Positions 10,050 through 37,970 of a stretch of DNA of 64,000 bases are shown here, in pieces. Origin of the DNA: Comamonas testosteroni TK102 (lineage in GTDB: Bacteria > Pseudomonadota > Gammaproteobacteria > Burkholderiales > Burkholderiaceae_C); NCBI RefSeq assembly GCF_000739375.1, contig NZ_CP006704.1, forward strand, positions 3,162,001-3,226,000. Reading direction: 5' to 3'. The notes under the pieces were generated by a model that saw nothing but the letters and a program-made list of their open reading frames with translations, was not told where the DNA came from and ran no database searches. The translations under genes and the position numbers were made by a program. The first letter of the stretch is position 1; each line of letters begins with the position of its first letter.

Positions 10050-10566
10050 CTGTGATAGCAAAGGCTTGACGGACGTGGAGATCGGAGACGCTTGCGCCAT
10101 ACAGCTACACACAAGATTGCAACACTCCTACCGCCTAAGCGGTAGTTAGTGTGTTGCATCTACGACTGCTAATGGGCGGCTCTTTGGCAGATCATCGAAT
10201 GACTGGTCATGGCCGATTGCTGCCCGACATGAACGGCCGCTAACGGGTACTTCAGGTTTGTTTCGCTGCCCCATCAAGTCTGCTTTTCGGCGACAGATCG
10301 CTCCCAGGCTCGGATGAGGCCAAGTCATCGAGCCCCGTATTGACGTGGTTGCAATCATCTTCCACATCTAGGAAGGCTTCAGCGACTTGTGGGCTCTGGC
10401 AATGAAGGCCCTTCAATGGCAATAAGAATCTTGAATTCAATGATTGTCAAAGCAACTAAAAATCGTTACCTTTCGTGTCTTCTGTGAGTGATTGCGATCT
10501 TTTTCATGGATATGGATCACTCCTATGTAAGTGCATTTACGCAAGCATTTGGGAGGTATCTTCGTC
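10050..10566. other. Intergenic stretch with one hairpin (10120-10153), no convincing gene
   Basis: The stretch between the MerR gene and the autotransporter holds a compact inverted repeat (CTACCGC 10128-10134 with GCGGTAG 10139-10145, four-base loop) flanked by imperfectly paired CAACACT/AGTGTGTTG arms. It has no T run, so it is not a typical terminator. The autotransporter ribosome site GGGAGG is at 10551-10556. Short ORFs here show no recognisable features. Confidence 0.5.
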
Positions 10567-19203: not shown

Positions 19204-20385
19204 GTGTCAACTTGGGCATCAGTGGATCTGGGCTGCATGACAGTCACAGAAATGCAGAATCACATCAACCAGTGGTACTTCAAAAGAAAAGAACGGACGG
19301 TCGAAAAGTCCGAAGATGAAGACTACCCCGTGAGATACCTCTACAAGGCACCAGTAGAAGTCATCGCACGCCGCCTAGCTCTGGACGGCTACGACAAGGA
19401 TTCGCTGCGCACGGACTTCACCAAGGAGCTGGCACGAAAAGCTCAGTTATGCAGATACATGATTGCAGAGGATTTGGACACTGACGGCGCGAATGCTGCA
19501 CTTTTGCCCGCTCTGGAGAACAGCACCCTTGAGGACTGGCTTGCCCGCCTCAAGAAGATCGCTACCGAAAACCTCAAGGCGAACATTTATGGAGAGAAGC
19601 GCACTAACTACAGCGATCAGCTTCTGAATTACATGCTGAGTGGCGCCGATGGATTTATCTTTTCAGACGAGCTTGGGATGGGCGGGTTTGGCTTTCCATG
19701 CTCAACAGAAAATATGTATGCAGTGGCGCTGATAGAAGTGATGCCGAATGAAAAATTCTTTGTCCTTGATGCAACCTATATGGTCGACTCAGGATGGACA
19801 GAGGATTTTGACGACTTGATCGAATACCACTCTGACAATACGCATTTCTTCAAGGACTTCACAGACTCGCTCGATTCAACCAAGGACTTGGCAAATCTGG
19901 CACCAGATAACCCAGCTCTCATGCGCTTGCTCTATGCCAACGTCATTACAGTGATGGAAGCCTACCTGAGTGACACCCTCAAGAAGCAAGTCATGAAGCG
20001 CAGCGCAGTGTTAAGGCGATTTGTCCAAAGCCACGATGCATTCAAAAACAGCAAAAGAGAGCCAATAAGCGAAATCTTCAATACATACGACAAAATATTG
20101 AAGCTGGCGAATGATGCTATTGACGAGATCAGCTTTCACAACGTTGTGACCGCGAAGACTCTCTATGAGAATGTACTGTCAGTCAATTTTCCAAAGGATG
20201 TTGCCTGGCTGATTAAAGCCACCACCAATCGACATGACATCGTTCACCGCAACGGCAGAACCTTAAAGAATGAGGTCCTGAATATTGTCAGTGCAGACAT
20301 CGACGAACTCGTCACAAAGGTGGTAGCTTTAGTCAAGGAGATTGACGCACAGGTGAAGGATGGGTTGCTGGACAATATTGATTGA
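19204..20385 (+). CDS. HEPN-domain protein, putative RNase (defence or toxin-like)
   Basis: Protein of 393 residues starting at GTG 19204, chosen because TAGGAG lies six bases upstream. The C-terminal third (about 240-385) looks like a RiboL-PSP/MAE-type HEPN helical bundle, with LLYANVITVMEAYLSDTL and the catalytic RxxxxH signature Arg343-HDIV-His348 in NRHDIVHRNG. The N-terminal part matches nothing I can name; HEPN/Toprim-associated proteins have a comparable layout. HEPN proteins of this kind usually cut RNA in toxin-antitoxin or anti-phage systems. No obvious antitoxin (MNT or small partner) lies beside it. It stands alone between the autotransporter and the mobile module. Confidence 0.7.
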   Translation: MSTWASVDLGCMTVTEMQNHINQWYFKRKERTVEKSEDEDYPVRYLYKAPVEVIARRLALDGYDKDSLRTDFTKELARKAQLCRYMIAEDLDTDGANAALLPALENSTLEDWLARLKKIATENLKANIYGEKRTNYSDQLLNYMLSGADGFIFSDELGMGGFGFPCSTENMYAVALIEVMPNEKFFVLDATYMVDSGWTEDFDDLIEYHSDNTHFFKDFTDSLDSTKDLANLAPDNPALMRLLYANVITVMEAYLSDTLKKQVMKRSAVLRRFVQSHDAFKNSKREPISEIFNTYDKILKLANDAIDEISFHNVVTAKTLYENVLSVNFPKDVAWLIKATTNRHDIVHRNGRTLKNEVLNIVSADIDELVTKVVALVKEIDAQVKDGLLDNID

Positions 20386-24742: not shown

Positions 24743-26194
24743 TCAGGCATATTCAAGTGCCCGCACTTCCTCGCGAGCTTCATCTGGCACAGTTTCTACA
24801 GCCGCTCGTTGTTGGACAGGCAATGCTTTCTTGGCTGCCTCCACCACTTCTATTTCTGTGGTGTGCTTGTTCTCCTGCAGCTGCAGCACGCCCTCATCGA
24901 TAGTGCCCTGGATGATGGGCACCAGGACCAGCACATCGCGGATCTGACCCAAGCGGTAGGCCCGGTCCTCTGCCTGGCGCATCAAGGCTGGCGTCCACGG
25001 CATGGAGGCAAATGCCACGATGTTGGCAGCCGTCAGCGTGATGCCCACGCCCGCAGCCATGGTGGTGCCAATGAATACCTTGATGCTTGCGTCCCTCTGG
25101 AACGCATCTACCGCAGCCTGCCGACGCTTCAAGCTATCCGAGCCGACCAGCGAGACACAGCCTACGCCAAGGCTGGCCAGGGCCTGTTTAAGGGCCTCCA
25201 CGGTGCTCATGTACTCGCAGAAGATGATGAGCTTGCCGTCCTCTCCCATTGCCTGCACGGTTTCGACCAGGTACGGAACCTTCAGACCTTCAAGGCATTT
25301 ACGCAGGCGAACGATCTTGGGCATGGCCTGCAGGGTCATGTCGCCATAGATCTCCTTGTAGACATCGAGCCCCTCTGGCGACAGAGGCACAAACTGCCTC
25401 GCCTTGTCACCCAGATCCTTGAGCACGTCCTTGCTGCGACGGATCATCCAGCCCTGGATCGCTGCAGCCAGTGCTGCTCGCTTCTCAGGGCTACCCGCGT
25501 AGCTCTTGCGGAACTCAGCCAGCGTGAGACTACCGAGGCGATGGCCCGTGATGCGCAGCAGTGTATGCATCTCAATCTCGCGATTGAGCAACGGCGTGCC
25601 GGTGACGACAAAGCATCGCTCTATCCGTGCTGCCAGCAGGAACACATTGCGCGTGCGGCCGCTCTTGTATTCCTTCAGGTAGTGGGCTTCATCCACGGCC
25701 ATCACCGCGAACTCCAGCTCACTCTCGCGCACTAGGCCGCCCATGCGTTCGTAGTTGCCGATCACCCAGTCACAGCCAGCCAGCGTCGAAATCCGGTCCT
25801 CACCGATCATCCCGACGCGAGCGTCTGGGTAGACCATCTTGATCTCTCGCTCCCAGTTCAAACGTAGGGATGCAGGGCATACGATCAGGACCCGGCCGCT
25901 GCCAGCAGCCATCCGGGATGCCACGACCGTCTGGCGGCTTTTGCCCAGGCCCATGTCATCGCCCATGCAGGCGCCCGATTGGCGCAGCATATGTGCGACG
26001 CCTTCGGCCTGGTAGTCGCGCAGCACGCCACAGGCGACCAGGCTGGCCAGGGCCACCCGGTCATACGGCATGTCATCGACGTGGCCATGCTCAGTCGATA
26101 GGAAACCGGTGCCCTCTTCTTCACCAGGCCCGCCGCCCCCCGCCCAGCGGTGGCGATGCAGCGGGCACGCTGATAGGCGAGCCTTCGTTGCCAC
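24743..26194 (-). CDS. SNF2-type DNA helicase/translocase, C-terminal part of a frameshifted gene
   Basis: Superfamily 2 ATPase core. It shows DYQAEGVAHMLRQ (Q-like), a Walker A variant DDMGLGKSRQT, DEAH, the SNF2 motif III-like FVVTGTPLLNREIE, and motif VI QAEDRAYRLGQ. SNF2 proteins move along DNA or remodel protein-DNA and fork structures. The first ~30 residues of this frame are out-of-frame sequence. The real N-terminus is the HARP-like segment encoded at 26121-26747, joined if one C is removed from the six-C tract at 26136-26141. The corrected gene (24743-26747) would encode about 667 residues, a normal size for a bacterial SMARCAL1-like protein. In PFGI-1-type elements topB commonly follows ssb; here this helicase is found in that area. 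Confidence 0.82.
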   Translation of the reverse strand: MATKARLSACPLHRHRWAGGGGPGEEEGTGFLSTEHGHVDDMPYDRVALASLVACGVLRDYQAEGVAHMLRQSGACMGDDMGLGKSRQTVVASRMAAGSGRVLIVCPASLRLNWEREIKMVYPDARVGMIGEDRISTLAGCDWVIGNYERMGGLVRESELEFAVMAVDEAHYLKEYKSGRTRNVFLLAARIERCFVVTGTPLLNREIEMHTLLRITGHRLGSLTLAEFRKSYAGSPEKRAALAAAIQGWMIRRSKDVLKDLGDKARQFVPLSPEGLDVYKEIYGDMTLQAMPKIVRLRKCLEGLKVPYLVETVQAMGEDGKLIIFCEYMSTVEALKQALASLGVGCVSLVGSDSLKRRQAAVDAFQRDASIKVFIGTTMAAGVGITLTAANIVAFASMPWTPALMRQAEDRAYRLGQIRDVLVLVPIIQGTIDEGVLQLQENKHTTEIEVVEAAKKALPVQQRAAVETVPDEAREEVRALEYA

Positions 26195-27436: not shown

Positions 27437-27883
27437 TTAAGCAGGCTGGCCTGCGTGGTAGGGTTCCTGCACTTCGCCTGAGGAGCCATCCGACTGCTCC
27501 GTGGACGAGCGGCGTGAAGCCTCGAACTCAATGGTCTTCACACGCGACAGCAGAAGTGCGACATCCTGGGCCTCGATCTTGAACACCATCACTTGACCGC
27601 CAGTAGCCTCATCGCGCGCCATGTACTCAAGCTCTTCCCCCATCACTAGCACTCTGGCTCCCTTGCGCAGGAGCCGCGCGGCATCGCGAGCCTTCGCTCC
27701 GTAGATTTCCACCTCGCGCCAAAAACCGCCAACCTCTTCGATTCCGCCCTCCTCGGTGCGGCCGTATCGGCTGAACCGAACACGCATACTGGCGACATCA
27801 AACTCGCCGTTAGGCCCACCCTTGAGCGTCCTGAGACTAGGAGAACTACCCAGGTTTCCCTTGCCGATAAACAATTGCGACAT
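27437..27883 (-). CDS. ssb: Single-stranded DNA-binding protein of the mobile element
   Basis: SSB-family OB-fold protein of 148 residues. ATG 27883 was chosen (AAGGAAA nine bases upstream; begins MSQLFIGKGNLGSSPSLRTL) rather than an ATG 45 bases earlier. The OB core shows the usual RVRFSRYG..GFWREVEIYGAKARDAARLLRKGARVLVMGEL-like pattern. The C-terminal tail is polar and lacks the DDDIPF tip of housekeeping SSB, which is common for element-borne copies. It sits in the DUF3158/ssb part of a PFGI-1-type maintenance cluster and would coat single-stranded DNA during replication or transfer. Confidence 0.85.
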   Translation of the reverse strand: MSQLFIGKGNLGSSPSLRTLKGGPNGEFDVASMRVRFSRYGRTEEGGIEEVGGFWREVEIYGAKARDAARLLRKGARVLVMGEELEYMARDEATGGQVMVFKIEAQDVALLLSRVKTIEFEASRRSSTEQSDGSSGEVQEPYHAGQPA

Positions 27884-27949
27884 ATCCAATTTCCTTGCAG
27901 TGCTGATTGAATGCCCGAGCTGCTGCACCAGGTCAGCCCAGGCACGGAC

Positions 27950-28561
27950 TTAGAGGGTCGAAATCGGGGAGCGTGGATAAAGAAAGACAGGAGCCTTGTC
28001 CACGCTCACGCGAATACGCTTGATATCGCCACGCGTCTGCTGGTGCTCCTCATTCAAGGCCACAGCGCGTTGGGACGCTGCCATGCACCATTGACGGAGT
28101 TCACTGGGCAGGCCTGACGCAAGCTCCTCCACCTCTTCAAAGCTCAAATGGCGGTTAGAGCCCATGCGTTGGCGCCAGCGCAGAAAGACATAGCCCGTTG
28201 TGCTTTTCTGGTGCACGACCAGATAGAAGCTCAGTCCTGGAACAGATTTCGACTTCTCGGACAAATCGCGCATCTGTTTCAGGATTGCGTCGATGCCGTC
28301 AAGTTTCTGGCGCAATCTGGACAGGGTGCCCCTACCCGTAAGGGCCTTTACGTCAGCTCGATCTTGACAGTCCTGATCCGCCAGGGCTTGACGACCCCAC
28401 AGCACGTTGTTGACGACTCGGGCACGACCGGTGTGCTGCGAAGCCCCTTTTATTTCCAGATCCCTTTTCACACCAATCCCTTTCAATATCAGTTCCAAAC
28501 GACTGCGCGCGGTCTTAATCAGCGGTGGCTGTAGCTTCTGGGCCAGTAGAAGCGGATGCAT
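27950..28561 (-). CDS. DUF3158-family integrating-element protein
   Basis: About 203 residues (222 if the upstream ATG at 28618 is used). The core (GLSFYLVVHQKSTTGYVFLR, then NRHLSFEEVEELASGLP) matches the DUF3158 family found next to ssb and the PFL_4669-type gene in PFGI-1, ICEclc and SPI-7 relatives. The role is unknown. The 5' end overlaps the neighbouring gene by 47 bases or more, and the start is uncertain because no strong ribosome site is visible. Confidence 0.75.
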   Translation of the reverse strand: MHPLLLAQKLQPPLIKTARSRLELILKGIGVKRDLEIKGASQHTGRARVVNNVLWGRQALADQDCQDRADVKALTGRGTLSRLRQKLDGIDAILKQMRDLSEKSKSVPGLSFYLVVHQKSTTGYVFLRWRQRMGSNRHLSFEEVEELASGLPSELRQWCMAASQRAVALNEEHQQTRGDIKRIRVSVDKAPVFLYPRSPISTL

Positions 28562-29639
28562 CGGAGCCATGCTCTTGCGCCTGCTGCAATTGGTCGCCAA
28601 CTTGCTGCAGCAACGCACGTTCGGCTTCGCTGATGTTGATGAGCCGGCGCGAATGCGAAGGCTTCACTTCGGCCTTGTAAATCTGGGCTGGCACTGCACC
28701 AAACGTGCTCACCACAAACTGAATGCGCTTCGCAGCTTCCGGGTCTGCACTGAACCAGTCAGAACGGCTCAGCTCACGAATCTCTGGACGGCCAAGCCAT
28801 TTGTCGAATCGGGCAGTGCCGTAGAACACGCCAAGGATGGCGCGGCTCATTGCGCTCAGCACAGCACGCGCCTGCTCATCACTCAGCAAGTTCTTGCGCT
28901 GCAGCGTTTTCTGGATACGAACAAAGTAGTCGTAGTCCACGATCAACATGGAGATCGCATAGCCGTAAGGGCTGCGGAATCCGAGGTTCAGGGTCATAGG
29001 GCGAGCGGACTGAACGATGCTCAGGCTCAGGCCGCGCTTGCGCTGGCTCTCCAGCAGCTCCTCGGCTTTAGCGATTTGGGTGCGCAACGACTCTTGAACT
29101 TGCGAGATGCCGTACTCATGGCGTACCAGTGCCCAATCTGCATATGGGTTGTCACGGCTCGTCAGTACCCAAAGGTTCCGCAGAGAGGAAGCAACGCGCT
29201 TGCCGCCAATGATCGCGTTCAAGCGCTTTTCAGGCTCCCCAGATCGCCCCTGAAAAAGTCGGTGGGCCTCGATGGTGTGAATCGTCATCTGGTCCACGCC
29301 TTCGTTCGTCAGCGGCCCGAGATCATCAATGCCTTGTGCTTCGGAGTTCGTCACCACCGCGTCCGCACCACGACGATCCCGTCGCTCCGCTTGCATCTTC
29401 TGGAATTGCTCTTTGCGATCTTCCAGCTCTACATAGCGATCAAACAAAGGATCGTCTTCAGACGCGCCAGCCTGGATGAATGCCGCCAAAGCAGCTTCTT
29501 CACCAGCAATTGAGTAGCCGTCACGAAATGGCGAATTCGGGTCGGTGACGAATTTAATGCCTGGTGCACCTGCACCCAATACACCGGCCAGCATTACTGG
29601 CTGAAAGCCGGGGTCTGTTTTGATTCGATCAGTAGCCAA
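28515..29639 (-). CDS. PFL_4669-family integrating conjugative element protein
   Basis: 374 residues from TTG 29639, which has GGGAGA six bases upstream. The segment GPLTNEGVDQMTIHTIEAHR..LFQGR followed by NPYADWALVRHEYGISQVQE is characteristic of the TIGR03761/PFL_4669 family, present in the maintenance region of PFGI-1-class integrative elements. The molecular function is unknown. The low-complexity C-terminal tail (ASASTGPEATATAD) is probably disordered. Confidence 0.82.
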   Translation of the reverse strand: MATDRIKTDPGFQPVMLAGVLGAGAPGIKFVTDPNSPFRDGYSIAGEEAALAAFIQAGASEDDPLFDRYVELEDRKEQFQKMQAERRDRRGADAVVTNSEAQGIDDLGPLTNEGVDQMTIHTIEAHRLFQGRSGEPEKRLNAIIGGKRVASSLRNLWVLTSRDNPYADWALVRHEYGISQVQESLRTQIAKAEELLESQRKRGLSLSIVQSARPMTLNLGFRSPYGYAISMLIVDYDYFVRIQKTLQRKNLLSDEQARAVLSAMSRAILGVFYGTARFDKWLGRPEIRELSRSDWFSADPEAAKRIQFVVSTFGAVPAQIYKAEVKPSHSRRLINISEAERALLQQVGDQLQQAQEHGSDASASTGPEATATAD

Positions 29640-29667
29640 GGTCTTCTCCCTAAATTAAATACTTCGT

Positions 29668-30120
29668 CTATCCAGCGTCCGGGACTTCTCCCGACTTCCC
29701 GCCCTCGTCGGCACTGGCGTTCTCTATTGCCACTTGCGCAGCTTCTTTAGCGATGTCTTCATTCCAACCGTCGATAAATGGAAAGTGCTTCTTACTAACT
29801 GATGGCAGCCGCTCGGCAATGGGCTGTCTTAGCAAATCGAGTACCGCATCGCGATTCACGGTCACCAGCGTTTTCGTGTTCTTCTGCACGCGGACATTAA
29901 TAAATCCGGTCTCTTGCAACCGCTGGAGAGTTCGTTTTACGGTGGGTAATGGAATGGTTCGGCACAGTTCGACTTCAGTGATCGACCCAGACGTAATGGC
30001 GATCTCTCCAATATCCCCCCGCTCTTTGAGTAAGACCCAAAGAACCGCAGCATCCGTGTAGCTTCTGAATTGCTGAACGAGCTGAATAAATAGATCGTTC
30101 CCTGATTTCTGATAGCTCAT
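29668..30120 (-). CDS. Winged-helix regulator
   Basis: 150 residues. The region from about 18 to 105 reads as a winged helix-turn-helix (TDAAVLWVLLKERGDIG..ITEVELCRTIPLPTVKRTLQRL..TGFINVRVQKNTKTLVTVN). It is probably a DNA-binding regulator of the downstream replication genes. Its start lies 24 bases from three 36-bp palindrome-bearing repeats (30144-30251), which are a natural candidate operator for it or for the upstream protein. Confidence 0.68.
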   Translation of the reverse strand: MSYQKSGNDLFIQLVQQFRSYTDAAVLWVLLKERGDIGEIAITSGSITEVELCRTIPLPTVKRTLQRLQETGFINVRVQKNTKTLVTVNRDAVLDLLRQPIAERLPSVSKKHFPFIDGWNEDIAKEAAQVAIENASADEGGKSGEVPDAG

Positions 30121-30143
30121 ATTGCTTCTCTTGAAAATTGCTG

Positions 30144-30270
30144 TGGCTCATTTCGAGCTACATGGCACTAAGTGCCGCGTGGTTCATTTCGAGCCACATG
30201 GCACTAAGTGCCGTGTGGTTCATTTCGAGCTACTTGGCACTGAGTGCCATATGGCCCATCTCGGGTTATT
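30144..30270. repeat. Three 36-bp direct repeats with internal palindrome (iteron-like), plus a decayed fourth
   Basis: Units lie at 30144-30179, 30180-30215 and 30216-30251, with a degenerate fourth from 30252. Each contains TTTCGAGC and the dyad GGCACT(A/G)AGTGCC. They are directly adjoining, without spacers. They lie between the large winged-helix protein gene and the 150-residue regulator. Iterons, an operator array or a ParB site are the likely readings. Confidence 0.85.
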
Positions 30271-30281
30271 CGGAAGTCAGC

Positions 30282-32039
30282 TCATTTCTTCGCCATTCCG
30301 ACCTTCGCTGCCCGCTCATTGCGAAGAGCAAGCAACTTGGCACGCGCCGCTTCTTTGCCCAAAGGCCCATTGCCTTCGACCGCCACTCGCACTGGATTGG
30401 CGACGGCGTTGGCCGATCCTTCGTGAAAAGCTTTCAGCGATGCTTCTTTCTGGGCCTGTTGAGCATCGGCCTGTTTGGCTAACTCAATGCGCTCTGCAGC
30501 GATGACGGGGGCATACGCCCAGATGCATTCGCCGTCTCTATATTTCTTCACCACACTGTTTAGCCAGGCCACTGGCGACTTCACTTTATGAAATCGCCGG
30601 TTCGCACCTTCCATCTCGTCCAACGCTTGCTGTTGTTGCTCAAGGGGAAACTTGGCCAGCACCTTGGAGAGGGACGCGTGCAGTGACTTCTCAATCCAGG
30701 TGGGGAAGATGAGGCCAGAGGCAAGTCCGGCGTTCAGCTTGTCCGAACTCGAAGACTTACCACCCTCACCTGCCTGAACGTCAGCCGTGCTGCTGGTGTT
30801 CACCGGCGAAGTAGTAGTGGATTGAATAGAAGTCCTTTGAATATTGATTGCGGGAAACGGCAGATCAAGCCTGCAGGTTTCGTCCAAAGAGTCAGGCTCT
30901 TGTTTGCAGGAAACGGCAAACGATTCCTTCGCTCCACCCTCGCTACCCTTATCGCTAAAGCTCTTCGCTAACTCCTTGCTGGCATTGGAGATTTGCTCCG
31001 ACTTGGCGGGCTGCTCACTGATCGAAGAAGTAGCTCCAGCTTGTCGGATTTCGACAGGTTTGTGAGGCACCAGATCGTCGTTCAAAAAAGACAGCAAGAG
31101 ATCGCGCGGGCGGGGAGCAGGAGGGGTCGCGGACAGTCCAAGCGTCGCTTGCGAGAACGCGAATGAAAGGCCGGACAGGTCCAGCGTCTGGTTCGTGGCT
31201 GGAGCGCTATTTGACGGTGCAGCCTTCGTTGACGCCGCAGGAGTAGCCTTGTCCGCGTCAGCCTTGCGAGGCAAAGGCTTGATGCTTTGCCCACGCAGGC
31301 ACAGCAGAATGGCGTCGAAGTTAATGCGGACCAACGCTCCGCCGATGCCGACCTCGTTAATGAATCCAGCCTTCTTCAGCCGCTCCCGAGCATTGCGCTG
31401 GACCTTCGGACCGAGCACAAGCGCTGTTGAGATTTCATCCTGGCTGACCGGGATAGCGCCATCGGTGAGCTGGCCTAGCTTCAGACACTCCCGGTGCCGC
31501 TGCAGCAGATAGGCCAAGTACAGCCCGCCTGCGATGCTTCCAGCCACATCAGCCAGGGGCTTGTAGTAGACCTTGCAGCCCTTGAACCAGCTACTTGCCA
31601 AGTCCCACGTAAGTTTCTGCCCCTTGCCGCGCATGGCCAGTGCCTTGGCGAGTGCAGGTACGTTCAGGCGGTAGTTCAGCACCGCAGGACGCCCAACGAG
31701 CATCTCTTCGAGAACGCCCTCGCCCATCAGCAGCTCGCGCACACTGGCTTGCTCGGTGCGGGTCAGCCCAATGGCCGACTTCCACTGCTGCAAGGACATA
31801 AAGAACCAGCCACCGCGCTCGGGATGGTTGCGGAGACTGTGGCGCGTCCAGTAGAGCGCCATGCCCACGAAGATGGCGGCTTTGTGGCCGAATTTTTCAG
31901 CCAGCACCGGATGAAATGGAACGAAACCTCGATCGTCCAGGTGCAGAAAAATTTGCTCGGCACCCTGGTGGATCGGCGCATCCTCCGGCAGTTCATAACG
32001 AACTGTTGGAATAGCTGCGAGTGAAAGAGAGCCGCGCAC
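30282..32039 (-). CDS. Large tandem winged-helix protein, candidate replication initiator
   Basis: 585 residues from GTG 32039, chosen because GGAG lies seven bases upstream; a TTG two codons earlier is too close to that site. Two winged-helix-like segments are seen. One is at about 35-130 (FGHKAAIFVGMALYWTR, then GLTRTEQASVRELLMGEGV). The other is at about 160-255 (GGLYLAYLLQRH, then VQRNARERLKKAGFINEVG). A long Ser/Ala-rich linker (about 265-455) and a helical C-terminus with a Lys/Arg-rich end follow. It occupies the place of replication proteins in PFGI-1-type clusters, but I cannot match it to the STY4528 family. Adjacent 36-bp repeats make an iteron-binding Rep plausible. Confidence 0.6.
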   Translation of the reverse strand: MRGSLSLAAIPTVRYELPEDAPIHQGAEQIFLHLDDRGFVPFHPVLAEKFGHKAAIFVGMALYWTRHSLRNHPERGGWFFMSLQQWKSAIGLTRTEQASVRELLMGEGVLEEMLVGRPAVLNYRLNVPALAKALAMRGKGQKLTWDLASSWFKGCKVYYKPLADVAGSIAGGLYLAYLLQRHRECLKLGQLTDGAIPVSQDEISTALVLGPKVQRNARERLKKAGFINEVGIGGALVRINFDAILLCLRGQSIKPLPRKADADKATPAASTKAAPSNSAPATNQTLDLSGLSFAFSQATLGLSATPPAPRPRDLLLSFLNDDLVPHKPVEIRQAGATSSISEQPAKSEQISNASKELAKSFSDKGSEGGAKESFAVSCKQEPDSLDETCRLDLPFPAINIQRTSIQSTTTSPVNTSSTADVQAGEGGKSSSSDKLNAGLASGLIFPTWIEKSLHASLSKVLAKFPLEQQQQALDEMEGANRRFHKVKSPVAWLNSVVKKYRDGECIWAYAPVIAAERIELAKQADAQQAQKEASLKAFHEGSANAVANPVRVAVEGNGPLGKEAARAKLLALRNERAAKVGMAKK

Positions 32040-32051
32040 TGACAAGCTCCA

Positions 32052-32504
32052 TCAGTGCGCAGCTGCGGCTACGGAGGTTGTCGCTGCACTTCGCATTGCG
32101 CTGGCCAAGGGCATGGCTTGTTGCTGCAAAAGCTCAAGCAAGCGTCGCTTCGAGATCCGATAGGTAATGATGCGGCCCTGACCAGCATGCTCATGCAGGA
32201 TGCCCAAGTCCACGAGTGTCTTGCGGCAGGTTTGCTGCTGTGCCCTCGTTATGCCGGTGTCCTTCGTGCAGCATGACGATGACATAAGGATTTCGAAAAA
32301 GTCCTCCGACTCACTGCGACGTTCCCGCTCCATCGCATAGGTAAGCCAGAGTGCGCTCAAGACGTTACCGGTGAGATCCACGAAAGCGCGGTTGATGGTG
32401 ATGGGCTCTTGGCCGATGAGTTCCAGAAACAGTGCGGACTTCAGAAATTCACTATCACTATTCGACAGCTGGGCGGGTAAGTTCTTGGTGTTCTTCATGT
32501 TCAA
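32052..32504 (-). CDS. Winged-helix protein related to the neighbouring large protein
   Basis: 150 residues. It has the same pattern as the N-terminal domain of the downstream 585-residue protein: hydrophobic helices (VLSALWLTYAMERE), then DTGITRAQQQTCRKTLVDLG and a wing (GRIITYRISKRRLLELL). It ends with a TGA in the same frame as the next gene, only a few codons before that gene's start. It is probably a paralogous DNA-binding subunit of the same replication module. Confidence 0.6.
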   Translation of the reverse strand: MNMKNTKNLPAQLSNSDSEFLKSALFLELIGQEPITINRAFVDLTGNVLSALWLTYAMERERRSESEDFFEILMSSSCCTKDTGITRAQQQTCRKTLVDLGILHEHAGQGRIITYRISKRRLLELLQQQAMPLASAMRSAATTSVAAAAH

Positions 32505-32547
32505 GCTTTATCGATAATGGTTGTAAATAGAACGTCCTACGGCTGAT

Positions 32548-33171
32548 TTATTTGCCCACCGGGAAGGCATTTCTCCTGGGAAGAGCCAGGCTATCCTCGT
32601 CTTCAAACTCTTTGAGCGTTGAATAAAGCGAGTCGATGGTGTACTCCGCAAAACGAGAATGGAGCTCGAAAATCCAATCACGTAGAGATTTCCCAGGCGC
32701 CGATTGGCTGGTAATTTCGGCCCAAGCTTGATGAATCTGATCCCGAACATCAAACTTCTTGGGTAATTTGGCCCTACCGCCGGTGACGCTTCCACCAACC
32801 AATTCACGCATCCTACGAATATCGTCTGCGGAGCGCTTAAAAAGCCGGGTAATCAGTGCACGCGATGCGCCATTACGCACAAAATATTCGCAAAGTGCAT
32901 CGTCTTGCCGTTGTCGGTCCAGGCCTTCCAGTTGCTGCCGGAGTTCGCCAGGAGAAAATACGAGTTTAACCCTCGTTAACTTAGTAGAAATATCCAGAAT
33001 ATCGCGAGTCTTGCGATGCCGAAGTTGGTCAATCAGTTCGGCATCGCAACCCATCTGCAATAACTGATCTATTCCAACCTCGGTTTCGATAGCACGAATT
33101 ACCTCCGTCAGCAGCAGAAAATTTAACTGCGGATTCGTGTGAATATCGACGGGAACAATATGATCTGTCAT
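32548..33171 (-). CDS. DUF2857-family protein of integrating elements
   Basis: 207 residues. The order of conserved pieces (LLLTEVIRAIETEVGIDQLLQMG, then LFSPGEL-like VFSPGELRQQLEGLDRQ, then YFVRNGASRALITRLFKRS) fits DUF2857, which in PFGI-1/SPI-7-like islands lies just downstream of the ParB gene, as here. ALITRLFKRSADDIRRMREL looks like a helix-turn-helix. It is probably DNA binding. It is 16 bases downstream of parB. Confidence 0.72.
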   Translation of the reverse strand: MTDHIVPVDIHTNPQLNFLLLTEVIRAIETEVGIDQLLQMGCDAELIDQLRHRKTRDILDISTKLTRVKLVFSPGELRQQLEGLDRQRQDDALCEYFVRNGASRALITRLFKRSADDIRRMRELVGGSVTGGRAKLPKKFDVRDQIHQAWAEITSQSAPGKSLRDWIFELHSRFAEYTIDSLYSTLKEFEDEDSLALPRRNAFPVGK

Positions 33172-33187
33172 TGCTTAACTAACGTGT

Positions 33188-34876
33188 TTATTCCGTAAAT
33201 AACGGTTTATAGGCTTCGCGGCTATCCTCTTGCACGGCGATATTAAATTCAGCGAGTGTTTGCATCAGTGCAGACAAGCATCTAGCAACCGCCGCATTGC
33301 CGAAGAGATACCCATAATGGTCAGAAGTGACATAAAGCTGCCCATTCTTCCCGCACAGAATTGCTCTATCTGTGCACTCCTGACGGAACGTATCAACGCC
33401 AGCCTGAATAGCCTTTACCCAGCGGCTTTCTGGGTCGCATTTCGAGAGTAGGTTTGCGTTGCACTGCCCGGTTTGCGTTGCAAGAAATGGCCAGAGATAC
33501 ACACGCAGAGTTTCGAGTTCTTCGGAGAGCTTTTGATCGCCCAAATACGACATACGTTCTGGAATATCCACCAAGAACCCGTATGGCAATGCCGGCATTG
33601 GCTTCACGAAGTCCGACAACGGTACGACAGCATTCAGATCCACAAGATTCTGCGATAGCCGTGCGGAAAACGCTGCCAGCTTGTCTGCTGGGCCAGCACC
33701 CGCCCCTTGCCGATCGGCCTTTGTGGTGGCTCTTTTACTGCTAGGCGATGCAGCCGCCGACACGCCGCCAAGCATTCCCGACAGTGGCGCCTGCTTGGCT
33801 TGCTGTTGCACCTTCTTGTTCTCGCTCTCTATCGAGCGCATGTCCTCAACAGAAAGCTTCGGGTCCTGGAGATAGGACTGGACGACTGACTCGATATGGT
33901 CGGCGGCAATACCAAAGTGCTTCGAGGATACAGACTGGATCTGGGTGAGCAGCGATTGAACATCCAACTTGACCTCTGTCCGGCTTGCAGGATCGGCCTC
34001 GGAGTTCGCTTGCTCCATGGCCTCAAGATCGGTCGCGTGCATCAAGAAGATTTCCTCGATGGAGTTTTTGACCTCATCACGCTTATCAAACTTAGATGCC
34101 ATTTCGTGAAGTGCTGAAACGGTAGGACGAATATTTATATTCACGTCAGACGTTTGAAGCCAATTACCAATCAACGCGAGATTTTCGACAGCGAAGATGA
34201 AGTTTTGAACCATCCTCACGCCATAGCTCAATCCAACCTCTTTAAGTACTTTATTAAGTTCGGTGGCGGAGAATGATTTAGCAGTCTCCTTCTCAATTTC
34301 ACGCTTGTAATTCATTACGCCCTGAGCTCGCTCCCAGAACGAAATATCACTTCGATTGTCGTTTTCGCTCAAGTGCGCGGCAATGACAGCAGCCTCGCCA
34401 GGCCACTTTCGAGTAACGACATGGATGCGCCGCAGTTTCTCGACGCCTTCATTCACCAGCTCTTTTGCGATCTCCACACGAGTATTTCCGCCACCATATG
34501 GAAAATACTTCTCCGTGGGGTTTCGACGCGTAACCGAGAACATGTTGGTGATGCCATCGACCTTCATACTCGCTTTGATTTCCGCCCGCTGGGAATTAGC
34601 TTTCTTGCGAGGATTCAGCGAATATTCATCAATATCAAAAACATCCAAGACGATGATGGAGCCATCAATCTCATCCATCGGATCAAAACTGGTAGTTGAT
34701 CTTTCAGAGTCTCGATGAAGAGCTGCTTTAGCCGCCTCAAGACGTGCTTGATTTGGAGTGAGCTTTGGTTTATCTGGTGCAGTCATAGCTGACGTCCCTT
34801 GCTTATTTCCAGGGGACGTAGTTAGGTTTAGCGAGGCTGCCCGTTCGCGAGCAGTCATGGTTTCAGGTGTACGCAT
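33188..34876 (-). CDS. parB: PFGI-1-class ParB-family partition protein
   Basis: 562 residues, with AGGAGG upstream of ATG 34876. The ParB/Srx nuclease-like N-terminal domain lies at about 80-190. It has EYSLNPRKKAN, then KVDGITNMFSVTRRNPTEKY and YGGGNTRVEIAKEL (ParB box with GGNTR in place of GERR). The helix-turn-helix region (about 195-270) follows, and the long C-terminus is coiled and low-complexity. The family is TIGR03764-like, restricted to integrating conjugative elements. It is 15 bases downstream of parA in one operon. The dnaB gene often present between parA and parB in such elements is missing here. Confidence 0.85.
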   Translation of the reverse strand: MRTPETMTARERAASLNLTTSPGNKQGTSAMTAPDKPKLTPNQARLEAAKAALHRDSERSTTSFDPMDEIDGSIIVLDVFDIDEYSLNPRKKANSQRAEIKASMKVDGITNMFSVTRRNPTEKYFPYGGGNTRVEIAKELVNEGVEKLRRIHVVTRKWPGEAAVIAAHLSENDNRSDISFWERAQGVMNYKREIEKETAKSFSATELNKVLKEVGLSYGVRMVQNFIFAVENLALIGNWLQTSDVNINIRPTVSALHEMASKFDKRDEVKNSIEEIFLMHATDLEAMEQANSEADPASRTEVKLDVQSLLTQIQSVSSKHFGIAADHIESVVQSYLQDPKLSVEDMRSIESENKKVQQQAKQAPLSGMLGGVSAAASPSSKRATTKADRQGAGAGPADKLAAFSARLSQNLVDLNAVVPLSDFVKPMPALPYGFLVDIPERMSYLGDQKLSEELETLRVYLWPFLATQTGQCNANLLSKCDPESRWVKAIQAGVDTFRQECTDRAILCGKNGQLYVTSDHYGYLFGNAAVARCLSALMQTLAEFNIAVQEDSREAYKPLFTE

Positions 34877-34891
34877 GCTTTCCTCCTAAAA

Positions 34892-35785
34892 TTAATTGGA
34901 GGGTGCGTTCAGATCGAGATATTGGGGGTGGTTAGATGCGTACATCTCCGACACGCTGGGCACAATTTCCCAAAGAAGGGAATGAAGCGTGTTGGACGCT
35001 TTCACTGGATCAACCCAATGCACTGGAACTCCGGCACTGGCCGCTTTTTTCCAAGCCGTTGCATCGGGAACATCGGTATCCAGCATCGTGATTTTTCCGC
35101 TCAGCTCAATAAAGCTTTCGCGAATCATTGCGGACATTTCCTTGCTATCGCTAGTCTTCTGGCTTTTATTGAGAAATGCCTTCATCTGAGGCATCTTCAA
35201 GCCCATGCTAGACACGCTATCGTGGCGTTCAATGAGTGCCTTCACATTTGCGATGAACTCGCGAGCAGAGATCATGTCTGGCGTTGCAGGCACAAGAAGC
35301 AGATCAGCAGCAACCACTGCAGCATCTTGCAGATGACCCACAGCACCTTGGGTATCAATAATCACCACGTCATATGCGCTAGCGATTGCAGGGTGCTTCA
35401 AGGGATTCTTGAAGCTGAACTGCATGCTCACTGGATTGCGATTGGCCATCCAGACCTGCAAAGACGAGTCCTTGGCGTCAGAGCGAACGATATGCAGGCA
35501 ACCGCCCTCGCTCTTAGGTGCCTTCTCAAGCTTGCCTTGATAGGAAGTCGGTGGCAGTTGGCAATGCGAGATGCAGTCCGGGGTCAGTGCACCAGACTGC
35601 ACCAACTGCGTGAGCCCAAAAGGTGCCGCATAGCGCAGCTGGTAATAGCGTGAGAGCGACGGCTGAATATCGCCGTCGATCAGCAGCGTCCTAAAGCCGA
35701 TGTCGTGCAGCAGGCCGCCCAGATTCGCAGCTGTAGTTGTCTTGCCGACTCCGCCCTTAGAAGCCAGCACAGTGATGATGAACAT
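34892..35785 (-). CDS. parA: ParA/Soj-family partition ATPase
   Basis: 297 residues. ATG 35785 was chosen for its GAGGA ribosome site and because the protein then begins MFIITVLASKGGVGKTTTAA, placing the deviant Walker A at the N-terminus as in other ParA proteins. Walker A' (VVIIDTQGAVG) and the VPATPDMIS motif are present. It is the first gene of the maintenance operon and works with ParB in element stability. In PFGI-1-type elements this gene (soj) lies at the attachment-site end, which fits its place at the right edge of the module. Confidence 0.92.
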   Translation of the reverse strand: MFIITVLASKGGVGKTTTAANLGGLLHDIGFRTLLIDGDIQPSLSRYYQLRYAAPFGLTQLVQSGALTPDCISHCQLPPTSYQGKLEKAPKSEGGCLHIVRSDAKDSSLQVWMANRNPVSMQFSFKNPLKHPAIASAYDVVIIDTQGAVGHLQDAAVVAADLLLVPATPDMISAREFIANVKALIERHDSVSSMGLKMPQMKAFLNKSQKTSDSKEMSAMIRESFIELSGKITMLDTDVPDATAWKKAASAGVPVHWVDPVKASNTLHSLLWEIVPSVSEMYASNHPQYLDLNAPSN

Positions 35786-35980
35786 TGAAAGTCCTCGTTG
35801 AATGGTTGTTGATCCATTCAACGGGAGCTGAAGTTCGCTCGCGCATTGGTAGGCCATTGCGACCAGAACTCAGGTCGCAATGGCCCTAAGAAGCCACCCT
35901 TGATCGATGGTTATTTCGTAACCTTTTGTTGAATATCAGGCAAAAAGCCTTGACTTTCAGCTTAAAAAAGTGTCAGAAAA

Positions 35981-35992
35981 TATACATCGTAT
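35981..35992. repeat. 12-bp direct repeat, left copy (possible att site)
   Basis: TATACATCGTAT here is repeated at 38192-38203, on the far side of the Rep/VC1465 element. It lies in an AT-rich stretch after parA. It contains CGTAT as in XerC half-sites of dif, but I see no canonical XerD half-site. Confidence 0.45.
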
Positions 35993-36067: not shown

Positions 36068-36532
36068 ATGTACCGAAGCCTCGGCATGGATCTGCATGGC
36101 TGCGCGCAGTTTCTTCATGTGTCGACCAGGACTGTACATAACTGGGAATCCGGCAAGCACGACATCCCATATGCCACGTACAGGCTGATGCGCCTGCTCA
36201 ACTTCATGGAGCTTCCAGGCAAGGCCTGGCAAGGCTGGTGCTTCGCTGGCGGCAAGCTGATTTCGCCCGAAGGTCGTTCGTTCGAAGGTAAGGACAGTAG
36301 CTGGTGGGGGCTGTTGCTTTTGAGGGCACGCGTGAACGACCGTCTCACGCAACGCTTGGGGGTCGAAGGCGCAGCGCGCACGGTCACGGGGGCAGCGGGA
36401 GCTGACCGCGTGGCCGGGGGCGTAGTGCCTCGTCCCACGGACGTGTCCGTGGGACGGCGCGAAGCGCCGGCCCTAGATTTATCTCATAGACACTTTGGAA
36501 CATGGAGGGAGAGAAATGGTCGACGCGACTGA
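36068..36532 (+). CDS. VC1465-family Xer recombination activation factor (XafT-like)
   Basis: 154 residues from the first ATG; the frame is open further upstream without a clear start. The N-terminal half is a Cro/C1-type helix-turn-helix (MDLHGCAQFLHVSTRTVHNW, then GKHDIPYATYRLMRLL), followed by the WQGWCFAGGKLISPEGRSF and WWGL signature of the VC1465 family. VC1465 of the Vibrio cholerae TLC satellite phage activates XerCD recombination at dif. The tail after about residue 85 is low-complexity and encoded over strong hairpins, so it may not be conserved. It heads a small element with an HUH replicase. Confidence 0.72.
   Translation: MYRSLGMDLHGCAQFLHVSTRTVHNWESGKHDIPYATYRLMRLLNFMELPGKAWQGWCFAGGKLISPEGRSFEGKDSSWWGLLLLRARVNDRLTQRLGVEGAARTVTGAAGADRVAGGVVPRPTDVSVGRREAPALDLSHRHFGTWRERNGRRD
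36431..36468. other. Two adjoining hairpins, candidate single-strand origin or packaging signal
   Basis: CGTCCCACGGA-CGTG-TCCGTGGGACG (36431-36456) has an 11-bp perfect stem and runs directly into GGCGC-GAA-GCGCC (36456-36468). They lie inside the end of the VC1465-type frame, ahead of the small genes and the rolling-circle-type replicase. Back-to-back GC hairpins are usual at origins or packaging sites of single-stranded elements. Confidence 0.5.
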
Positions 36533-36734
36533 CGATGAGCCTGATGAGATGGATCTCGGCGACTGCACACTGCGCTGCAACTTCGACACAAGGGTCATCA
36601 CGATGCACCTCAAACCTGAAGCAGCGGTGTTTATGACGCGTCAAGAGAAGCGGGATCTGGAGCGCAGGACGTACAAAGCGGCTCTCAAGTGTGCTGAGGG
36701 CTTGGTTCTCAAAGTACAGAAAGGATGGGCTTGA
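36516..36734 (+). CDS. Small orphan protein of the HUH-replicase element
   Basis: 72 residues; GGAGG lies just before ATG 36516. The N-terminus is acidic (VDATDDEPDEMDLGD) and is followed by a likely beta hairpin and a basic helix (RQEKRDLERRTYKAALK). It overlaps the VC1465-type gene slightly and its stop overlaps the next ATG (TGATG), so the three genes form a tight + strand operon. Family unknown. Confidence 0.6.
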   Translation: MVDATDDEPDEMDLGDCTLRCNFDTRVITMHLKPEAAVFMTRQEKRDLERRTYKAALKCAEGLVLKVQKGWA

Positions 36735-37009
36735 TGACAACTTTAGCAATCATGTCGGGTGCAACGCCCTCTCCTTGCCATAGCTTGGCAAGCTGCCTAG
36801 AGCAGGTCCAGCCAGGTCAAACCGTCATTGCAGACACCTTTGCTGCTCTGGGTGCGACTCTTGGCGAATGTATCGACAGCATGCTGCTCATCAAGGGTAA
36901 AGGGGGCTTCGTCCATGTACCCGGAGTCATGGACACCTCTACTGCTGGCGGGGCATTGGCAGTGGATCTGTTGAGCGCTGTGAAGATCGCTACGGTCGAT
37001 CAGCACTAA
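36734..37009 (+). CDS. Small protein resembling part of a serine-resolvase catalytic domain
   Basis: 91 residues; ATG 36734 with AAGGA upstream. GQTVIADTFAALGATLGECI followed by DTSTAGGALAVDLLSAV mirrors the stretch GD.lvV..LDRLGRs..dl ... IDTsTp.GrlvF.ll.a of serine resolvases. The N-terminal strand with the nucleophilic Ser and the catalytic Arg of DRLGR are not there, so it should not be a recombinase. It may be a regulatory or structural remnant. It overlaps the preceding gene and lies 67 bases ahead of the replicase gene. Confidence 0.55.
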   Translation: MTTLAIMSGATPSPCHSLASCLEQVQPGQTVIADTFAALGATLGECIDSMLLIKGKGGFVHVPGVMDTSTAGGALAVDLLSAVKIATVDQH

Positions 37010-37076
37010 AAGAAAAGCCCCAGCGCGTGTTCTAGCACGCCTGAGGCCATGACCAATCTTGAAAGGAACAAGACTG

Positions 37077-37970
37077 ATGGATCGGATTGTAGGTCGTGAT
37101 CGATTTGTTAGCACCTCTGGCGGCGGATACGAACTTGTTCGTCGCACTCTTGGCAATGGCCATGTCGAGTGCACTGTTCGGGAACTGGTGACCTGGCACC
37201 ATGCCGGTGAGCTGACCGAAGAGGCCTATCAACAGTATCTAGAGGCACGTGAGGCCAACGCTGAGGAACGGCGCCAAGCCAATCTGGAGCGTGCGGCCAA
37301 GCGAGCCAAAACCCGTGTTCGACATCTGTGCAAGGCTGCAGGTGTGGACACCCTCCTCACCCTCACCTACCGAGCCAACATGACCTGCTGGGCTACGCTC
37401 AAGCGGCACATGAAGGAGTTCAATCGGCGTATGGCTCGGCTGATTCCTGGCTGGTTCTACGTTGCTGCGTTTGAACGTCAAGCTCGTGGAGCATGGCATG
37501 TACACATGGCCGTGCATCGTGTGCCGCAAATGCTCAAGCATCCCTGTGGTGTCAAAGTCAAAAGCTACAGCGTCATCCGTTCAGTGTGGCATGCCGTTGT
37601 CGGGGAGCTGGGTGGCAACGCTGACCTACAGCCAAGTAAACGTATGAGAGCGCCCTCCCGCATCGCTGCGTACCTGTCGAAGTACATGACCAAGGCCTTT
37701 GCGGATGGTGACGCCTGGAGCAACCGGTTCTCCTCCAGCAAGGGTCTGTCTGTGCCCAAGCCTCAGCGCATCCGATTTGTAGGGTGGAGCATGCCTGACG
37801 TGCTACAGGCAGTGTTTGATGACCTGGACTCAGTCGGTTACCAGTTCTCAGAGCAGTTGAGTGTGCGGCTAAGCCACTTCAAGGATGCCTGCTGGTTCAT
37901 TCTTGATACCAACATCCCCATGAGGGAACCCTCTTGGGCTGAGGCATCCAGCAGCGCTTATTGGGGCTGA
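37077..37970 (+). CDS. HUH-type replication endonuclease (Rep/Cri-like)
   Basis: 297 residues; ATG 37077 was chosen with AAAGGA nine bases upstream. It carries the three rolling-circle motifs in order. Motif 1 is TLLTLTYRAN (92-101). Motif 2 is the metal-binding WHVHMAVH with His141 and His143. Motif 3 is AYLSKYMTKAF with candidate nicking Tyr199 and Tyr203. It would nick and rejoin the element origin in rolling-circle replication, like phage gpII or the Cri protein of TLC-type satellites. It is the last gene of the small + strand element. Confidence 0.78.
   Translation: MDRIVGRDRFVSTSGGGYELVRRTLGNGHVECTVRELVTWHHAGELTEEAYQQYLEAREANAEERRQANLERAAKRAKTRVRHLCKAAGVDTLLTLTYRANMTCWATLKRHMKEFNRRMARLIPGWFYVAAFERQARGAWHVHMAVHRVPQMLKHPCGVKVKSYSVIRSVWHAVVGELGGNADLQPSKRMRAPSRIAAYLSKYMTKAFADGDAWSNRFSSSKGLSVPKPQRIRFVGWSMPDVLQAVFDDLDSVGYQFSEQLSVRLSHFKDACWFILDTNIPMREPSWAEASSSAYWG

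Follow-up and report, generated by a model that had tools for sequence, protein, structure and literature searches.

The stretch of DNA considered here, a 64,000-nucleotide window of the Comamonas testosteroni TK102 chromosome (NZ_CP006704.1, positions 3,162,001 to 3,226,000), appears to carry a module for replication and partition that belongs to a MobH/MPF_G element; this element lies between two dif-like sites and has a plasmid, p1_SCLZS63, as a colinear relative. We infer that a 587-residue protein of this module is its replication initiator, and replication probably starts from an origin driven by this protein, the core of which lies inside the initiator gene itself. The module would be a SPI-7/ICEclc/pKLC102-type replication module in a new form, an O-type initiator replacing STY4528, and its plan would be that of phage lambda O, not that of pi/RepE.

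The first-pass annotation of the window had proposed a plasmid-like replication module within an integrative element, a proposal strengthened by the finding that the colinear p1_SCLZS63 is a circular 143-kb plasmid. It also had the gene order and coordinates from ParAB/DUF2857 to the PFL_4669/DUF3158/ssb set right, as judged from open reading frames (ORFs) and family matches. The order parB-DUF2857-initiator-PFL_4669-DUF3158-ssb is that of the pKLC102/PFGI-1-type module, DUF3158 being assigned solely by tblastn to an annotated relative. The features, in window coordinates, are as follows.

34892..35857, minus strand: ParA-type ATPase (AAA_31, 1.1e-18; ParA_partition, 1.5e-23, below the cut-off)
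33188..34876, minus strand: ParB of the type found in integrative and conjugative elements (ICEs) (TIGR03764, 1.2e-32; 113.6 bits, below the curated cut-off of 143.75)
32548..33171, minus strand: DUF2857 protein, BisC-type in ICEclc (PF11198, 3.1e-15)
32052..32504, minus strand: upstream 150-residue stand-alone winged-helix (WH) protein, paralogue of initiator WH1 and WH2
30282..32045, minus strand: 587-residue putative replication initiator, made of WH1, WH2, a linker and a C-terminal domain (phrog_9773; STY4528-type C-terminal domain)
31608..31928, minus strand: WH1 of the initiator, residues 40-146 (alignment; O-like match)
31260..31607, minus strand: WH2 of the initiator, residues 147-262 (hhalign to WH1)
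30905..30918, minus strand: internal iteron copy 1, TGCCGTTTCCTGCA (repeat search)
30872..30885, minus strand: internal iteron copy 2, weak and degenerate, GGACGAAACCTGCA, 33 bp from copy 1 (spotted by eye)
30849..30862, minus strand: internal iteron copy 3, TGCCGTTTCCCGCA, 23 bp from copy 2 (repeat search)
30806..30848, minus strand: AT-rich stretch directly next to the last iteron, containing ACT ACT ACT triplets; a putative unwinding element
30405..30737, minus strand: C-terminal domain common to STY4528-family initiators (hhalign 98.5)
30142..30263, no strand: 36-bp tandem array, three copies with alternating palindromes (repeat search, shuffles)
30163-30177, 30199-30213 and 30235-30249: GGCACTNAGTGCC-type palindromes of the array
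29668..30120, minus strand: downstream 150-residue winged-helix protein, its start 22 bp away from the array (partial WH2 match)
28515..29639, minus strand: PFL_4669/AcaB-type protein (TIGR03761, 6.1e-59; PF08900, 1.5e-47)
27950..28618, minus strand: DUF3158-position protein (tblastn, 43% to the p1_SCLZS63 protein annotated as DUF3158 family), itself giving no significant Pfam match
27437..27928, minus strand: single-stranded DNA-binding protein, ssb (NF006039, 1.9e-35)

The two similar winged-helix segments first noticed in the large protein are indeed homologous (profile-profile comparison by hhalign, probability 99.0, E 3.7e-18), and the upstream 150-residue protein is a third copy (99.4 to WH1, 98.9 to WH2). 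The downstream protein, also annotated as a winged-helix regulator, fared less well: its match to WH2 is weak and partial (84.4 over 52 columns), and it would be at most a distant member of the group. WH1 matches the phage "replication initiation O-like" family phrog_9773 at 1.3e-15, and a match of this type is found in all three relatives of the initiator kind tested (2.3e-17 to 1.4e-13; 2.3e-17 for the p1_SCLZS63 initiator), while two STY4528 proteins scanned alongside gave no phage-family match. The O-like match points to a winged-helix fold for both domains. Compared with solved structures, the WH1 profile gave nothing at E<=1; the C-terminal domain profile gave three matches at E 0.16-0.29, none convincing.

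The C-terminal domain of the initiator is homologous to its STY4528-family counterpart (hhalign 98.5, E 1.5e-15, 86 columns), whereas WH1, the part compared, shows no relation to the STY4528 profile (0.6% probability). As a whole, the 587-residue protein reaches 17.8 bits against NF040582, the STY4528 family, for which the curated cut-off is 130; five of eight relatives tested match this family at E<=0.01, none of them above the cut-off. The C-terminal part is predicted to recruit the helicase or a helicase loader. The STY4528 protein is thus matched in operon place, in its C-terminal domain and, as described below, in internal repeats, but not, as far as WH1 goes, in its DNA-binding part. Compared with lambda O-type proteins (phrog_9773 and relatives), which have a homologous WH1 and iterons in the gene, the window protein differs in its duplicated WH, with a third copy as a separate protein, in its STY4528-type C-terminal domain and in its ICE setting.

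Tandem winged helices beside direct repeats had suggested a pi/RepE-type (Rep_3) iteron plasmid initiator, albeit one of no known Rep family. The latter statement holds for Pfam, in which the 587-residue protein has no match at E<=1, Rep_3 included, but not for phage families, given the O-like WH1. The same two results contradict a Rep_3 assignment at the sequence level, as do the origin-like repeats located inside the gene, an arrangement seen in O-like phages; we regard a pi/RepE-type initiator as extremely unlikely.

Phage lambda O binds repeats lying inside its own gene. Iterons within the initiator gene, beside an AT-rich stretch, are likewise present here, weakly in the window and more strongly in relatives. 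Whereas the first-pass annotation correctly recognized the 36-bp repeats downstream of the gene, it missed this second set, which occupies 30849-30918 in linker-coding DNA. Such repeats are often spaced 22-23 bp apart, the last copy abutting an AT-rich stretch with triplets; in the window, the stretch at 30806..30848 sits within the AT maximum of the 587-residue protein's gene (60-nt windows). In p1_SCLZS63, the initiator gene contains two copies of TGCCGTTTCCTGCA and one of TGCCGAAACCTGCA, followed by ATCTATATACAAA, and the iteron is common to window and plasmid at the DNA level.

In 15/16 initiator-type genes, none of 30 synonymous shuffles reaches the score of the internal repeats; from this set, a truncated ORF (L040, of the L041 type) and the near-copy of the window in C. 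testosteroni JL40 (L003) were omitted. The initiator gene also has the top repeat score of its own locus in 11 of 11 loci with controls (35 control genes, which in the relatives are tblastn-matched intervals, not whole ORFs), and 14/16 genes, all but L007 and L042, have their 60-nt AT maximum no more than ~100 nt away from the repeats. Repeats above synonymous shuffles also occur in 13/16 STY4528-type genes, L081 being counted with this set only, and are palindromic in many of them. Among phage relatives, 33 of 36 distinct genes exceed 15 synonymous shuffles, with a period of 21-25 in 26 and of exactly 23 in 22; these 36 are what remained of 52 alignment relatives after removal of eight broken or open frames and eight identical copies, and they include several near-copies.

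Alternatively, repeats of this sort could be no DNA sites at all but reflect a linker peptide that is repetitive and under low constraint: conservation of the linker is poor, and in-frame copies exist, as in L033. However, the best period is indivisible by three in 12/16 initiator-type genes, so that copies are read in different frames, as with the 22-23 bp periods, and in L037 and L039 one DNA repeat encodes two different peptides. Since successive copies often fall in different reading frames, it is the DNA, and not the peptide, that appears to be under selection. The excess over synonymous shuffles, the DnaA boxes beside the repeats and the occurrence of the same DNA repeat in an unrelated gene (see below) also argue against the linker explanation, which we consider very unlikely. 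Codon usage agrees with selection on DNA. Linker runs of at least three threonines are found in 12/15 initiator-type and 7/15 STY4528-type genes (L003, L038 and L087 left aside), and ACT/ACA codons make up 34/47 of the codons in the initiator-type runs versus 148/416 elsewhere (p 2e-6) and 30/33 versus 106/335 in the STY4528-type genes (p 2e-11), a bias that suggests selection on DNA triplets. These ACT-type triplets may resemble the DnaA-trio. Exact TTWTNCACA (DnaA) boxes number seven in 31 genes and their flanks of up to 1.5 kb, for a chance expectation of 8.4, yet all seven sit 50-158 bp from internal repeats (chance estimate 6e-8 at a 170-bp limit, which was set after seeing the boxes).

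The 36-bp array at 30142-30263, whose score is reached by 0/200 mononucleotide shuffles, recurs as a layout rather than as a sequence. Of ten loci tested (window/L003 and L037/L038 being near-copies), nine have 36 bp as the best period of the gap that follows the initiator gene, with differing unit sequences; in eight of these nine gaps no shuffle out of 200 is at or above the score, and in L038 three are. L039 lacks period 36 in the gap, although a weak period of this length shows up towards the end of its ORF. The units contain perfect or near-perfect palindromes, such as GGCACTNAGTGCC in the window, GGTAACCGTTACC in L035 and TGGTACGGCGTACCA in p1_SCLZS63; JL40 has two of these, versus three in the window. 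L007 (pSYMBR3459) is a distant relative of the module; its gap (11644-11708) holds the perfect palindromes TGTTACCCGGGGTAACA and TGTTACCCCGGGTAACA, 48 bp apart, and not a 36-bp array, and pKLC102 has a 57-bp, 15.2-copy array at the corresponding place. Single or tandem palindromes also lie downstream of the STY4528 gene in loci with no match to the downstream WH protein.

These repeats have a published counterpart. The PFGI-1 paper places a putative oriV directly upstream of PFL_4669, with four palindromes of 23 bp in its AT-rich half and, in its GC-rich half, four repeats of 46 bp that each contain an inverted repeat (PMC2647930). The two-part plan is therefore already in print, as a prediction, and the 36-bp array would correspond to one of its halves, the iterons inside the initiator gene to the other. 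Together, the gene order, the C-terminal domain and the two-part repeats, at the initiator gene and before PFL_4669, set the window module beside the PFGI-1 putative oriV, and the idea of an undescribed replication system finds no support. As in the window, parB, DUF2857, PFL_4669, DUF3158 and ssb flank the repeats of pKLC102; unlike PFGI-1 and pKLC102, the window has a 587-residue O-like WH-WH initiator instead of STY4528, stand-alone WH genes on either side of it, a 36-bp unit instead of 46 or 57 bp, and no dnaB found among the module proteins scanned.

The array could instead be a centromere (parS/sopC-like) or an operator, bound by ParB, DUF2857 or the downstream WH protein. Its palindromes, its beginning 22 bp upstream of the WH gene and the ParB encoded in the same operon all fit, and we presume a likeness to the sopC of F. 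The palindromes that follow STY4528 in loci without a downstream-WH match would make a shared protein such as ParB a candidate binder. Against this, a centromere or operator leaves the internal iterons and the AT-rich stretch unexplained, and the PFGI-1 paper takes such repeats as oriV. An island-wide operator would be expected to recur, whereas the A palindrome of the array, at up to one mismatch, has three matches in the 6.06-Mb genome, all within the array (at 3 mismatches, three more, versus seven for a reversed control), no further copy of the B palindrome turns up in the window at up to one mismatch, and in p1_SCLZS63 A and B recur outside the array just once each, with 3 mismatches. A promoter search of 29600-32600, confined to the sigma-70 type and with a chance expectation of only 1.4, returned none. 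We hold a centromere or operator to be a real possibility, though somewhat short of probable; the array may be either of these or the second half of oriV.

The absence of dnaB had been singled out in the first-pass annotation. None is found among the ten proteins scanned, a scope that does not extend to the rest of the island, but this is not peculiar to the module. SPI-7-, ICEhin1056- and pKLC102-type records have dnaB, whereas in Pseudomonas veronii (L092) the order is parA-hicA-parB with no dnaB annotated in 10 kb, and in L081 ~130 bp separate the parA and parB matches. These two loci rule out the absence of dnaB as a peculiarity.

The window contains only the right end of the element, the left end being 104 kb upstream of it. 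The 12-mer ACGATGTATATT is present in exactly two copies in the 215 kb searched, at chromosome 3058326, within the best dif-like site (21/27 to the consensus), and at 3197979. In p1_SCLZS63 it occurs once, with one mismatch, between mobH and parA, the point where the two island ends would join. Based on the two copies and this plasmid junction, the island measures ~139.7 kb, and we propose, from the sites, that the host Xer recombinases would have inserted it at dif; next to its pil genes, p1_SCLZS63 also encodes a tyrosine recombinase. The gonococcal genetic island and other dif-integrated elements are comparable in being large type IV secretion system (T4SS) islands at a dif site. JL40 carries the 587-residue protein at 99.8-100% identity, and its match to the window continues beyond the right att core as far as 36377; hence it is the att core and p1_SCLZS63, and not JL40, that define the right boundary. 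A search for shared 14-mers as ends between window 18.8-24.4 kb and 35.8-39.5 kb found none. Two further features of the window belong here.

35979..35990, minus strand: right-end att core ACGATGTATATT of the ~139.7-kb element
24743..26194, minus strand: SNF2-type helicase conserved beside the module (PF00176, 3.1e-19; 82% to p1_SCLZS63)

Just beyond the right att core, 36068-37970 is occupied by a phage-type gene with DUF3653 and a rolling-circle Rep of the HUH class, which may be what is left of a filamentous phage in the same dif region. This Rep (37059-37970; phrog_3419, 2.6e-57) was rejected as the replicator of the element for its position outside the att core, near the DUF3653 gene; no HUH-type Rep is named in the incomplete gene table of p1_SCLZS63, a plasmid in which no search aimed at one was made. 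Inside the island, a 2775-residue ORF at 10531-18858 contains some seven tandem repeats of ~297 bp and may encode a large surface protein, and 19204-20385 encodes a HEPN/Toprim-type protein (PF18871, 1.2e-23), possibly defence gene cargo.

Among 72,556 plasmid records, three match the 587-residue protein and one of them, p1_SCLZS63 of C. aquatica (NZ_CP104280.1, 143,067 bp, circular), covers at least 80%, its initiator being 50% identical over 83%. In tblastx against the 215 kb of chromosome, the two backbones are colinear as a circle: plasmid 0-7 kb corresponds to chromosome 3193-3186 kb, 34-44 to 3140-3130, 110-130 to 3086-3067, 134-138 to 3062-3060 and 138-143 to 3197-3193, while the accessory stretches of the plasmid have matches off the colinear line or none. 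The plasmid bears a MobH relaxase and ICE-type transfer genes, and the chromosome has a TraI_2 (MobH-type) relaxase match at 3061193. With relaxase and T4SS on one element, annotated on the plasmid and represented by colinear tblastx matches on the chromosome, the element is, from its genes, a MobH/MPF_G ICE, and its excision and transfer are predicted. No replication initiator is named in the PLSDB gene table of p1_SCLZS63 (incomplete, but seen whole), and 8 of its 29 gap ORFs of at least 110 residues, plus two annotated hypotheticals, gave no Rep family match. PLSDB MOB-suite typing reports no replicon and "non-mobilizable", despite the annotated MobH and transfer genes. Resistance genes of the plasmid include blaAFM-1, blaCAE-1, dfrA5, sul1 and others.

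A genome search uncovered a ~40-residue match inside an unrelated 381-residue gene beside the relaxase gene.

3058510-3059652 of the chromosome (L002:1012-2157): 381-residue gene with a second block of iterons and AT-rich triplets

This cluster, at chromosome 3059044-3059146, comprises one TGCCGTTTCCTGCA and three TGCCGAAACCTGCA, with spacings of 23, 33 and 33, then CTCTATATACAA and ACTACTACTACG. The 381-residue protein has no Pfam match at E<=0.1 and is matched in 9/249 other genomes, mostly via its C-terminal part; p1_SCLZS63 lacks the second cluster. Upon excision of the island, the two clusters would lie ~6 kb apart.

Replication could also proceed chiefly as a relaxase- and oriT-driven rolling circle, the 587-residue protein being only a regulator. 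The MobH-type relaxase match is in keeping with this, and the rise in ICEclc copy number depends on TraI and oriT1, although a few cells show four foci without traI or oriT1 and other mechanisms are allowed there (PMC6561031). The existence of a 143-kb plasmid with the same backbone speaks against a rolling circle as the main mode, as do the O-like initiator, its C-terminal domain, which is that of a family named as a replication protein, and the ssb gene in the operon; we regard this alternative as unlikely.

Several observations nonetheless weigh against an origin inside the initiator gene. L007 is the one initiator-type gene of 16 to fail the shuffle test, and the STY4528-type genes L082, L083 and L087 fail it too, L083 and L087 being near-copies from one genome. 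Near-copies are common among the relatives (L037/L038, L083/L087, several phages), and the counts are not independent. Among the initiator-type genes that pass, that of the window has the weakest internal repeats (14.4, versus a shuffle maximum of 11.4 and 13.0 for the window's ParB gene), and one of its three iterons is degenerate. Some neighbor and control genes have equally high AT maxima. A DnaA box is found in only 7/31 genes, and there is no exact one in or near the window initiator gene. On the plasmid side, p1_SCLZS63 is the single record of this close type that was found, and its GC-skew minimum moves (1664 as linearised, 79115 rotated, 41651 detrended), giving no clear origin. The dependence of ICEclc copies on TraI and oriT1 belongs here as well.

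We infer a series of binding, melting and loading steps from the homologies, the anatomy and conservation of the repeats, and the colinear plasmid. The WH domains, perhaps with the 150-residue paralogue, would bind the two or three iterons inside the initiator's gene. The abutting AT-rich triplet stretch would then melt, with the help, in some relatives, of DnaA at a linker box. The STY4528-type C-terminal domain would recruit the replicative helicase, which in elements without dnaB would be supplied by the host. Finally, the 36-bp palindrome array may act as the second oriV half, for copy control, or as a centromere or operator.

The initiator protein is matched in 19/299 same-family genomes, the window's own included. 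All nine genes from parA to ssb are present in the same order in JL40, p1_SCLZS63, L033, L035, L036, L037 and L038, whereas L034 lacks a parA match and L039 lacks matches for the downstream WH protein and ssb; the downstream WH protein is matched in seven window relatives besides JL40. More distant loci retain fewer of the nine genes, with identities mostly of 30-60%. For its part, NF040582 is matched in 23/274 genomes of the class, 12 of them over the cut-off, and 33 records in the plasmid collection, pKLC102 and ICEhin1056 among them, have a match to the STY4528 protein encoded at L081. The STY4528 name is in use as an annotation, as in one report (PMC12324682).

The left end of ICEclc reads parA, shi, bisD, bisC, 96323, 95213, inrR, an order inferred from construct names, and its ParB-domain protein adjoins BisC, which carries DUF2857, as the two are neighbors in the window (PMC7423338). 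BisDC of ICEclc is a transcription activator. Mutants in the homologous module of ICEHin1056 lose transfer (PMC3739013). An origin inside the initiator gene appears in no title among the matches listed; most subscription papers fell outside the scope of that search, which is no proof of novelty.

We put at nearly even odds that an entire branch of conjugative islands replicates, as phage lambda does, from an origin within the initiator gene, with the DNA-binding part of STY4528 swapped for duplicated phage-O winged helices and the helicase-recruiting C-terminal domain kept. The origin block would then be portable, and the excised island may hold two origins ~6 kb apart. The way in which this class of ICEs is copied is unsettled, with relaxase-dependent copies reported for ICEclc (PMC6561031) on the one hand and no replication origin predicted in one set of ICEclc-type elements (PMC9298801) on the other. 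With a candidate origin that is conserved and spans a few hundred bases, and with its initiator at hand, this question becomes directly testable. Moreover, since the module is carried by a resistance plasmid to which PLSDB assigns no replicon type, replicon typing may miss this group. If true, the link between phage O and ICE initiators through the internal-origin layout would mean that replication parts have been swapped between phages and conjugative elements.

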